The notes under the pieces are model-generated. The model was not told the DNA's origin. It ran no database searches and saw only the letters and a list, made by a program, of their open reading frames with translations. Below, in pieces: positions 60,845 through 64,000 of a stretch of DNA of 64,000 nucleotides. This stretch comes from Solibacillus silvestris (lineage in GTDB: Bacteria > Bacillota > Bacilli > Bacillales_A > Planococcaceae). The position numbers and the translations under genes are program-made. The DNA lies in NCBI GenBank assembly GCA_001586195.1, contig CP014609.1, positions 3,318,501 through 3,382,500 on the forward strand, given 5' to 3'. The stretch's first letter is position 1; each line of letters starts with the position of its first letter.

Positions 60845-62785
60845 ATGATTGTCTTACAAGTAAATCAATTATATAAATCCTTTATTACAGATGAAATATT
60901 AAGCGGTGTAAAATTAGAAGTTCAGCACCGTGATCGTGTGGCATTAGTAGGGCGAAACGGTGCCGGCAAGTCCACATTATTAAAAATAATTGCCGGACAA
61001 ATGAGCTACGACTCTGGTGAAATTATTATTCCAAAAGATATTCAAGTCGGCTATTTGGAGCAGCATGCAGGTATCGACTCTGAACTTTCAATTTGGGACG
61101 AAATGATGACAATTTTCGCAAACTTGCAAAACCAGGAACAAACGCTGCGTCAACTTGAACAGCAAATGGCCGATCCTGCCATTTATGAAGATAGCGAACA
61201 ATATGCACGTATCATGGCAGAGTATGACCAGTTGCAGCATGATTTCAAAGATGCAGGCGGTTATCAGTATGAAGCCGATACCCGTTCTGTTTTGCATGGT
61301 ATGCAATTTTTCCCTGAAGATTATCAAAAGCCGATTCGTTCTCTATCCGGGGGACAACGGACACGACTGGCCCTCGCAAAGCTTCTTTTGTCAAAGCCCG
61401 ACCTCCTTATTTTAGATGAGCCGACCAACCATCTTGATATTGAAACACTGTCATGGCTGGAAGGCTATTTAAAAGGTTATGATGGAGCTATTTTAATCGT
61501 CTCACATGACCGTTATTTCCTAGATCAGGTCGTGTCGATCGTTTATGAAGTATCCAGAACAAAAGTGTCGAAATATGCAGGGAACTACAGTGCTTATCTA
61601 GATGAAAAGGCGAAGAACTATGAACGTGATTTAAAAATGTATGAACGTCAAATGGATGAAAAAGCCAAGCTCGAAACTTTTATTCAAAAAAACCTTGCCC
61701 GGGCTTCAACTACAAAGATGGCACAGTCACGTCGCAAAGTGTTGGAAAAGACTAGTTGGATGGAATCTCCTGATGGCGATGAAAAAAGTGCCAACTTCGG
61801 CTTTACAATTGAGCGCCAAAGCGGAAATGATGTACTGTCGGTGGATGATTTAACAATTGGGTTCACGAACAAGGCGATTTCCGAAAATATTGGAATGCGT
61901 GTCTTTAGAGAAGACCGTATTGCACTTGTCGGTCCAAACGGTGTTGGGAAATCTACTTTATTGAAAACAATCGTTCAAGATATCGAGGCACTTGCCGGAG
62001 ATATCCGTTACGGTACGAATGTGCAAATTGGCTACTATGACCAGGAACAGGCGAAACTTCATTCAAATAAACCTGTTCTTAATGAACTTTGGGATGAATG
62101 GCCGTTATTAAATGAAAAGGATATCCGCAACATCTTAGGCCGCTTCCTTTTTAGCGGGGATGATGTGTCAAAAACAGTGAGCTCCCTATCTGGTGGAGAA
62201 AAAGCACGTCTTGCACTTGCAAAATTAATGATGCAAAAATCAAATTTCCTAGTACTTGATGAGCCGACGAACCATTTAGACTTGGATAGTAAAGAAATAT
62301 TGGAAAATGCTTTAATTGATTATCCTGGAACGTTGCTATTCGTTTCACATGACCGTTATTTCATTAATCGTATTGCCACTAAAGTTGTTGAACTATCAAG
62401 CACGGGTTCGTTCGAATATTTAGGTGACTATGATTATTATGTTGAAAAGAAAGAGGAACTTGAAGAATTAGCTGCAATGAAAGCAGCAGCCATTGAAAAA
62501 AATACGACTGAATCGACCGTTCAATCAAAGTCTACATCGATGATTGATAAGGACGCGAAAAAAAGAGAACGTCAAATTCGTCGTGCTATTGAAGATATTG
62601 AAAAGCAGATGGGGGCTTTAGATGAAAAAATCGCCGTCTTTGAAGAACAACTTTGTGATCCTGCCATTTTTTCAGATCATGAAAAGACATTATCGATTCA
62701 ATCTGAGCTGAATGATTTGAAAGAACAGCATGAAACATTTGAAATGGAATGGCTTGAACTAAACGAAGAGCTCGAACAGCTATAA
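60845..62785 (+). CDS. ydiF: YdiF, ABC-F family ATPase
   Basis: A 646-residue soluble protein with two ABC domains and no membrane part. Walker A1 is GRNGAGKSTLLK and signature 1 is LSGGQRTRLALAKLLL followed by LILDEPTNHLDIE. Walker A2 is GPNGVGKSTLLK and signature 2 is LSGGEKARLALAKLMM followed by LVLDEPTNHLDLD. The linker between them is about residues 240-330. A C-terminal coiled coil (about 570-645) is KRERQIRRAIEDIEK onwards. ABC-F proteins bind the ribosome and help translation or protect it from antibiotics. Position and features match B. subtilis ydiF. Confidence 0.95.
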   Translation: MIVLQVNQLYKSFITDEILSGVKLEVQHRDRVALVGRNGAGKSTLLKIIAGQMSYDSGEIIIPKDIQVGYLEQHAGIDSELSIWDEMMTIFANLQNQEQTLRQLEQQMADPAIYEDSEQYARIMAEYDQLQHDFKDAGGYQYEADTRSVLHGMQFFPEDYQKPIRSLSGGQRTRLALAKLLLSKPDLLILDEPTNHLDIETLSWLEGYLKGYDGAILIVSHDRYFLDQVVSIVYEVSRTKVSKYAGNYSAYLDEKAKNYERDLKMYERQMDEKAKLETFIQKNLARASTTKMAQSRRKVLEKTSWMESPDGDEKSANFGFTIERQSGNDVLSVDDLTIGFTNKAISENIGMRVFREDRIALVGPNGVGKSTLLKTIVQDIEALAGDIRYGTNVQIGYYDQEQAKLHSNKPVLNELWDEWPLLNEKDIRNILGRFLFSGDDVSKTVSSLSGGEKARLALAKLMMQKSNFLVLDEPTNHLDLDSKEILENALIDYPGTLLFVSHDRYFINRIATKVVELSSTGSFEYLGDYDYYVEKKEELEELAAMKAAAIEKNTTESTVQSKSTSMIDKDAKKRERQIRRAIEDIEKQMGALDEKIAVFEEQLCDPAIFSDHEKTLSIQSELNDLKEQHETFEMEWLELNEELEQL

Positions 62786-62789
62786 TTTT

Positions 62790-62825
62790 GGAGTGTCCAT
62801 CAACATATGGGCACTCTTTTTTTAA
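62790..62825 (+). terminator. Terminator of ydiF
   Basis: GAGTGTCCAT and ATGGGCACTC pair around a short loop, followed by T residues. It lies just after the stop. Confidence 0.88.
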
Positions 62826-62954: not shown

Positions 62955-63177
62955 TTCTCCACAATTTTATTCACAATATAAATCTAGTAATATCAACATA
63001 TCAACATAGTTTTCCACATTATCCACATTTAAAATCAAAGTTATGCACATTGCTGTGTGAAAAAGACACTACTATATATAGATAAGTCACATGTTACCCA
63101 CAAGTTATTCACACTTTGTGTATAAGTACGCATGTTCGCAAGTTTTTTTGTGGGTATTTAACTTTATCTGTGGATAA
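62955..63177. other. DnaA-box cluster between ydiF and tsaD
   Basis: About ten TTATCCACA-like 9-mers lie within 223 bases. Exact boxes are at 63019-63027 (plus) and 63169-63177 (minus). One-mismatch boxes are at 62955, 62967, 63010, 63041, 63094 and 63105 (plus) and 63117-63125 (minus), and a two-mismatch box is at 63149-63157 (minus). No gene lies here. In B. subtilis a DnaA-bound cluster sits beside gcp (tsaD), so this is probably a regulatory DnaA sink rather than an origin. Confidence 0.8.
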
Positions 63178-63304
63178 TTTTCAGAAAAGTTGAACAGTCA
63201 ATAAAAACTTGTTATAAATGAGATTTATCCATCATAAATTACTAGATTCGACTTTTTTATATTATTGAAAGAAAACAAATTAAATAATTTTTTATTTTCT
63301 CTAT

Positions 63305-63348
63305 AAAAAAAGCATGGTGAAAGGATATACTCATCCTTTCACCATGCT
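63305..63348 (-). terminator. Terminator of tsaD
   Basis: GCATGGTGAAAGGAT and ATCCTTTCACCATGC form a 15-bp stem on the minus strand with a short loop, followed by seven T residues, just after the tsaD stop. Confidence 0.93.
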
Positions 63349-63356
63349 TCTATACC

Positions 63357-64000
63357 CTATTTCCAGCTCATGAGCTCCATCCCAGGTCGCCCATTCATTG
63401 CTAAATTCCCACGAATCCCTGCTTCATACATTTCATACGCAGCTGCACCAATCATTGCAGCATTATCTGTACATAATTTTAAAGGTGGCACATAAAATGG
63501 AATACCTTCTTCTTTAAAGGCTTTTTCCAATGCTGTCCGTAATCCTTTATTCGCTGATACACCGCCAGCTGCAATTACTTGTTTTACCTGAAACTCACGT
63601 GCTGCTCGTACTGTTTTACCCGTCAATACTTCCACTACACTGTCTTGGAAGCCTTTTGCAACATGCTCGGCAATAATCTCTTCACCGCGCTGATCCATAT
63701 TGTGTTTATAGTTAATCACTGCAGATTTTAAGCCACTGAAGCTAAAGTCGTATGAATCCTCCTCCAACCATACACGAGGGAAAGGCACGGCTTCTGTTGC
63801 TTCATGGGCAAGACGATCAATATGAGGACCACCTGGATATGGCATATTCAAGACACGGGCTACTTTGTCATATGCTTCACCTGCCGCATCATCACGTGTT
63901 TCACCAATAACTTCAAAAGAACCATGTTCACACATTAGGACAAGCTCTGTATGTCCACCTGATACAACGAGTGCCAACAGCGGAAATTCCATTGGCTGTA
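63357..64000 (-). CDS. tsaD: TsaD, tRNA N6-adenosine threonylcarbamoyltransferase (5' end outside window)
   Basis: TsaD transfers threonylcarbamoyl to adenosine 37 of ANN-decoding tRNAs together with TsaB and TsaE. The last 214 or so codons are present; the N-terminal third lies beyond the right edge. The visible part starts in [20 protein letters not shown], which includes the ASKHA nucleotide-binding loop. Residues [20 protein letters not shown] and [15 protein letters not shown] are family signatures, and the C-terminus [14 protein letters not shown] carries the metal and nucleotide region. No frameshift is seen. It follows the DnaA-box cluster, as in B. subtilis gcp. Confidence 0.96.

Follow-up and report, generated by a model that had tools for sequence, protein, structure and literature searches.

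The window, a 64,000-nucleotide stretch of the Solibacillus silvestris chromosome, contains two convergent genes, ydiF and tsaD. The ydiF gene (60845–62785, plus strand) encodes an ABC-F family protein of 646 aa that scored above the cut-off of NF000355. The tsaD gene (also named gcp) is on the minus strand and continues beyond the window; its 3' part (63357–63998) scored above the cut-off of TIGR03723. Each gene is followed by a terminator-like hairpin with a T-run. The hairpin of ydiF (62790–62817, plus) has an 11-bp stem and that of tsaD (63310–63349, minus) has perfect 17-bp arms. Both folded far better than shuffled sequences, with z values of −4.56 and −7.64, respectively. The stop-to-stop gap from ydiF to tsaD is 571 bp.

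A group of DnaA boxes lies in this gap at 62955–63177, 3' of both genes and between their hairpins. It contains nine 9-mers with at most one mismatch to TTATCCACA. Two of them are exact (63019 on the plus strand and 63169 on the minus strand) and seven have one mismatch. The boxes on the plus strand are a0 (TTCTCCACA, 62955–62963), a (TTATTCACA, 62967–62975), b (TTTTCCACA, 63010–63018), c (the exact TTATCCACA, 63019–63027, abutting b), d (TTATGCACA, 63041–63049), e (TTACCCACA, 63094–63102), and f (TTATTCACA, 63105–63113). Boxes g (TTATACACA, 63117–63125) and h (exact, 63169–63177) are on the minus strand. A tenth box, d' (TTTTTCACA, 63056–63064, minus), has two mismatches, and the ten boxes are split into seven plus and three minus. 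A weak box b' (ATATCAACA, 62998–63006, plus, two mismatches) starts 12 bp before b. Two other motifs adjoin the boxes. A conserved non-DnaA site, GTACGCATGTTC (63126–63137, plus), abuts box g; it is LexA-operator-like and deviates from the LexA consensus. A CodY-like sequence, AATTTTCAGAAAAGT (63176–63190, no strand assigned), overlaps box h by 2 bp.

The preliminary description had proposed a dense DnaA-box cluster of ten boxes (two exact, seven with one mismatch, and one with two), and the scan and the shuffles bore this out. Box calling was done by mismatch counts, which stood in for a DnaA matrix. The 64-kb window contained 26 matches to TTATCCACA with at most one mismatch, versus a shuffle mean of 19.7. 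Outside the cluster there were 17 such 9-mers, at most two per 223 bp. Twenty 20-kb stretches sampled elsewhere in this genome (400 kb in all, about 10% of its length, three of them picked for dense places already seen) reached a maximum of five per 223 bp. Equal density in many AT-rich gaps, which would have spoken against the proposal, was thus found neither in the window nor in the 10% sample. With the looser consensus TTATNCACA (at most one mismatch), the gap contained 10 boxes, versus a mean of 1.5 and a largest value of 6 in 60 shuffles. That AT-rich DNA produced the cluster by chance is suggested by the nature of the gap, which is intergenic and 28% GC. However, the maximum in 2000 dinucleotide shuffles of the gap was three boxes per 223 bp, none exceeding it, and different families share one ordered layout. 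We consider a chance origin hardly credible.

Conservation of the array among relatives

All 61 genomes searched of the host family (Planococcaceae) contained tsaD, and 58 of them had ydiF convergent with it within 2.5 kb. The threshold for the family count was at least five boxes (at most one mismatch to TTATNCACA) per 250 bp. The cluster was present in 53 of the 61 loci. Of the eight misses (L013, L016, L019, L025, L031, L047, L055, and L060), five had two to four boxes and three had none. L031 (genome G046) had an intact array after all, on the ydiF side of an insert. In genome G291, a seven-box array (L329:4716–4886) was located 4.2 kb past the tsaD segment, displaced by inserted DNA. Scoring the cluster as absent from G046 and G291 was therefore wrong, as an insert had displaced the array.

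We then considered 214 loci, made up of 61 family loci, 73 class-search loci (72 of them from other families by label; one repeated family set was left out), and 80 named loci. Gaps shorter than 80 bp and gaps sharing at least 30% of their 8-mers with an earlier gap were dropped, leaving 175 non-redundant loci. The cluster was found downstream of tsaD in 138 of them, versus 1 of 1750 shuffles; related genomes are not independent in these counts. The other 37 loci had no cluster as defined. By family label and among the matches listed, 26 of the 33 families examined carried the cluster at least once, f1 included; the count of 33 leaves out eleven further family labels of the class search. In the remaining seven (f4, f10, f16, f31, f32, f34, and f36), no locus read had the cluster. 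The named Listeria, Exiguobacterium, Atopococcus, Mammaliicoccus, and Gracilibacillus loci had no cluster within the 900 bp or less that were read, a range that a more distant array, like that of family f9, would escape.

Arrays were also present in f9, a Staphylococcaceae-like family. Its TsaD was closest to that of a named Mammaliicoccus locus (72% by BLAST; two proteins compared, L387 and L395). At least six boxes per 250 bp were found in 12 of 13 f9 stretches. The f9 array follows ydiF, and an ORF of about 500–570 aa lies between array and tsaD in 8 of the 13 stretches. The one such ORF tested, that of G193 (L387:658–2301, minus), encodes a 547-aa protein with MutS domain V. In G207 (L393 and L394), about 49 kb separate ydiF from tsaD. 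Each of the two genes has a composite site (described below) beside it; the array accompanies ydiF, and the site at tsaD has few boxes, as if the element had been split or copied at a rearrangement.

The array was intact where an insert parted it from tsaD or from ydiF (G046, G014, and G291), and for 44 of the 138 clusters ydiF was not detected in the 1.3 kb next to tsaD. These results indicated that the cluster is not tied to the ydiF/tsaD pair as such.

Ordered layout and helical phasing

Toward tsaD, the start distances between successive boxes are 12 bp (a0 to a), 43 (a to b), 9 (b to c), 22 (c to d), 53 (d to e), 11 (e to f), 12 (f to the inverted g), and 52 (g to the inverted h). An abutting pair, with the 9-bp same-strand distance of b and c, was present in 116 of the 138 clusters. 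The 22-bp and 12-bp distances were present in 84 and 79 of them, respectively. The b-c-d core together with box a, with up to four mismatches allowed in total, was found in 86 of 175 gaps, versus 1 of 170 on the reverse strand; flanking segments (1287 kb of strand) contained none. The a-to-b distance was 42 in 35 loci, 43 in 31, and 54 in 13, accounting for 79 of 85 loci, and was never between 45 and 53. This spacing varies by roughly one turn of the helix at a time. The distance from d to the next box was looser. Among the 86 core loci, the e-f-g module was found in 37 and the weak box at the b' position (at most two mismatches) in 54, and box d' was found in only 9.

The b-c-d signature had one match in the 3.99-Mb host genome at up to three mismatches. 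At up to two, it matched 37 places in 34 of 200 genomes of the host class, and 26 of the 37 were within about 500 bp of tsaD. This strict signature had no match in the other 166 class genomes, and the reversed pattern had none in the 200. In the 86 core loci, the mean per column was 0.34 bits in the spacers and 1.61 in boxes b, c, and d. As these loci were chosen on boxes, only the low spacer value and the 0.71 bits of b', which played no part in the selection, are informative.

For 2073 same-strand distances, the best period was 10.6 bp with a vector length of 0.61. Random placement, a null that ignores shared ancestry, gave at most 0.09. With one locus per family (26 families), the vector length was 0.57. 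Clusters at ywlC and the dnaA loci were used as controls. The ywlC clusters had the same period (0.66 plus, 0.59 minus); the dnaA loci had it on the plus strand only (0.34). Phasing as a feature special to the tsaD array was rejected, as the ywlC clusters were phased too. Helical phasing is common to clusters of this kind.

Because the row layout is kept across many related bacteria, the array probably serves replication as a brake or a gauge and is not a chance cluster. The earlier suggestion of a selected element was supported.

Motifs joined to boxes g and h

Anchoring on box e exposed a conserved motif directly after box g, consisting of GTAC, four bases, and GTTC. In a scan that allowed one mismatch, 42 copies abutted an inverted DnaA box; all 42 were exact and had the left half GTAC. 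They were in 32 of 44 non-redundant host-family loci and in ten others. The composite pattern TGTGNATAAGTACNNNNGTTC had one perfect match in the host genome, and the next best place had two mismatches. With at most one mismatch, it was found at 39 places in 37 of the 200 class genomes, versus 11 places for the reversed control. All 21 perfect matches were located downstream of tsaD, at most 2.8 kb away (family genomes, 16 of 17; f9 genomes, five). The 18 one-mismatch places were divided equally: nine belonged to an array of this kind next to tsaD or ydiF, and nine were elsewhere. The composite site was present in all 12 f9 genomes of the set. Outside the 61-genome family set, G[AT]AC-RNRY-GTTC was rare, being present in 10 of 101 clusters, versus 2 of 1010 shuffles. 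Seven of these ten were from named members of the host family or of f9-like genera, by title. The spacer fitted RNRY in 61 of 63 unique sites.

The site has the same GTTC right half and RNRY spacer as the Gram-positive LexA operator, whose consensus is given as CGAACRNRYGTTYC in an excerpt of PMC2248561. Differences are that its left half is GTAC instead of GAAC and that it is not upstream of a gene here. Compared with CGAAC-N4-GTTCG, AGTACGCATGTTCG has two mismatches, and the site was not assigned to the LexA operators. It also agrees with RGTACnnnDGTWCB, listed for cyanobacterial LexA in that excerpt (PMC2248561). A second protein may bind at the site abutting box g, where it would help or hinder DnaA loading.

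The CodY box has the consensus AATTTTCWGAAAATT. In 12 host-family loci, including that of the window, an inverted DnaA box and a TTTTCWGAAAA palindrome overlap. 15-mers with at most two mismatches to the CodY consensus were present in 18 of 175 gaps, versus 11 of 875 shuffles. The window's site has one mismatch, and the sites in the 12 family loci, which overlap a DnaA box, have at most two. Unlike a CodY box, this site is not in a promoter, and it is confined to part of one family.

A TTGACA-like hexamer followed the composite site in 49 of the 63 unique sites. No enrichment of a −10 element was detected 16–18 nt past it in these sites, and an Rfam search gave no match; the reading of the hexamer as part of a promoter or an antisense RNA was dropped on these grounds. 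A small ORF across the composite site was also rejected, as inspection by eye placed the variable bases at codon positions 1–2 and not 3.

The hexamers are one of three points in favor of the array as a transcription control region, at which DnaA would regulate ydiF, tsaD, or a small transcript inside the array. The other two are that the ORF of about 500–570 aa in eight f9 stretches begins downstream of the array and that, at several clusters of B. subtilis, DnaA acts as a transcription factor (PMC4447404, in excerpt). Besides the lack of −10 enrichment and of an Rfam match, the window's own array has no TTGACA after the composite site, and promoter-like matches in the gap were not in excess (4 versus a shuffle mean of 5.5). 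The array is also flanked by terminators. Promoter control of ydiF or tsaD via the array is unlikely because the genes converge and both end in terminators, and transcription control as a whole appears improbable. The idea that the array ties ydiF and tsaD expression to replication was not upheld, given convergent genes, an array 3' of both, and a hairpin ending each.

Chromosome position and putative function

The host genome is a single contig of 3,991,226 bases, with dnaA at 3,707,893 and the array at 3,381,455–3,381,677. They are 326 kb apart, or 0.16 of the replichore. In 26 host-family chromosomes, the locus was at 0.15–0.49 of the replichore (median 0.23; array verified in 22). In 11 chromosomes of eight other families, it was at 0.15–0.33 (array verified in 10). 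Some chromosome lengths were rounded in this survey. The tsaD gene was co-directional with the fork in 37 of 37 cases, its strand being inferred from ydiF in 17. Five f9 chromosomes with the array had it at 0.50–0.69, so proximity to oriC is common and not required. Its use as a mark of array-bearing genomes was weakened, as these five had served for comparison and turned out to carry the array.

Other box groups were observed in the same genome. Seven boxes in 300 bp (308044–308200, L067:45–201) are at the 5' end of the tsaC-type gene ywlC, a position where B. subtilis is known to have a cluster. At least five boxes per 250 bp, in mixed orientation, were found in 17 of 30 ywlC (TIGR00057) loci. 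The ywlC cluster was unseen at five of seven loci from the tsaD-array families f14, f22, f28, f29, and f41, a comparison too small to rank the clusters. Both tsaC and tsaD act in t6A synthesis and both are beside clusters, which may be coincidence; a literature search for a link between clusters and t6A synthesis found nothing relevant. Six boxes per 300 bp (3670559–3670984, L064:560–985) are between rlmH (yydA) and an HtrA-like gene, where B. subtilis is also known to have a cluster. At 3872887–3873007 (L066:888–1008), six boxes, five of them exact TTATNCACA copies that share a strand, are at the start of a putative GntR-like gene, with a putative ABC transporter after it; we know of no B. 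subtilis cluster at such a gene. Two exact TTATCCACA boxes at 3704820–3704837 (L065:821–838), back to back and inverted, are beyond a putative Jag-like gene, a placement like that near trmE in B. subtilis.

A box number like that of oriC regions might point to a second or former replication origin at the tsaD array. We regard this as very improbable. The array is not adjacent to dnaA, which has two box clusters of its own 326 kb away. Little outside the boxes and the composite site is conserved, and no conserved unwinding element was seen in those columns. For B. subtilis, an excerpt of PMC11019786 reports no sign of alternative origin use.

The gcp/ydiF cluster of B. subtilis is described in excerpts of published work. 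It is among the eight strongest DnaA-binding regions and is bound in vivo (PMC4447404, Table 1, region 4). In vitro, it has 10 DnaA sites, with Kd values of 0.15 µM (ATP) and 0.33 µM (ADP), and 16-fold more gcp/ydiF DNA was recovered with ATP-DnaA at 55 nM (PMC4447404). B. subtilis lacking six clusters initiates early. According to the same review excerpts, the effect is strong only with all six gone, no single cluster has a known significant role, and DnaA overproduction causes no over-initiation (PMC5295017, PMC13220808). The clusters are described as sequestering DnaA (PMC11019786). A 2026 review, in the part available, calls DnaA-ADP/ATP balancing in B. subtilis unknown (PMC13220808).

The array of the window has the same place, as the preliminary description had stated: both lie where tsaD and ydiF converge, between the two 3' ends, have about ten DnaA boxes, and are in the oriC half of the chromosome arm. 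A difference is that the host is of another family. The GTAC-RNRY-GTTC and CodY-like sites are described for the host family; the comparison with B. subtilis covers gene setting, box number, and chromosome arm, as published. The gcp/ydiF cluster of B. subtilis was already known; family-wide presence, the ordered layout, the composite site, and the CodY-like overlap were found here. Okumura et al. 2012 reportedly studied clusters outside oriC, gcp/ydiF among them. We recognized no earlier description of the layout or the composite site in a literature search that did not cover that paper, the likeliest place for one, and priority is not claimed.

We estimate a probability of about 0.7 that the array corresponds to the gcp/ydiF cluster of B. 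subtilis and is a site of cooperative DnaA loading that keeps DnaA away from oriC. It would be a DNA element outside transcribed genes, not a promoter, and DnaA, probably ATP-DnaA, would assemble on it cooperatively, lined up on a single side of the double helix. The 11- and 12-bp start distances in the array match the preference of E. coli DnaA for box pairs 2–3 bp apart, as excerpted from PMC11317965. DnaA held about 326 kb from oriC would leave less free DnaA at oriC, and initiation would be restrained. The dose of the array would double as the fork passes. The proposal that such sites titrate DnaA or restrain initiation is plausible as a putative function. Accessory regulators may gate the loading site.

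Box spacing need not be conserved in a passive sink, which counts against simple withholding. With its ordered boxes and the second motif next to them, the array could instead be a regulated DnaA switch like E. coli datA and DARS, at which accessory proteins on the sites joined to g and h would shape the complex, change the nucleotide state of DnaA, or gate the amount held. Phase-keeping spacing changes (42, 43, or 54 from a to b in 79 of 85), the confinement of the 21 perfect composite matches among 200 class genomes to the region downstream of tsaD, and the CodY-like palindrome over a DnaA box in 12 family loci fit such a switch. datA and DARS1/2 are likewise non-coding DnaA-box groups outside oriC with a conserved layout and adjoining accessory-protein sites, and datA function depends on the spacing between the boxes and the IHF site (PMC4585315, in excerpt). 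However, this likeness is one of organization, and B. subtilis is described as lacking IHF, datA, and DARS (PMC13220808, in the part available). The composite site was also missing from 91 of 101 non-family clusters, with GAAC or GTAC allowed as the left half. We consider the switch an unlikely reading.

Also unlikely is a gated DnaA store in the host family and the Staphylococcaceae-like one. A LexA-family or similar repressor on GTAC-RNRY-GTTC would compete or cooperate with DnaA at box g, and CodY would do so at box h in some genera, so that DNA damage and nutrient state would set the amount of DnaA withheld from oriC. If true, this store would be a Gram-positive analogue of datA and DARS built from different cofactors.

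A passive sink and an ordered complex can be told apart, as the former should tolerate spacer changes and the latter should not. The ordered layout, the phasing, and the joined motif give exact bases to mutate and a bait for a putative cofactor. The array touches the question of whether Gram-positive bacteria control DnaA by protein inhibitors only or, as in E. coli, by dedicated chromosomal sites too.
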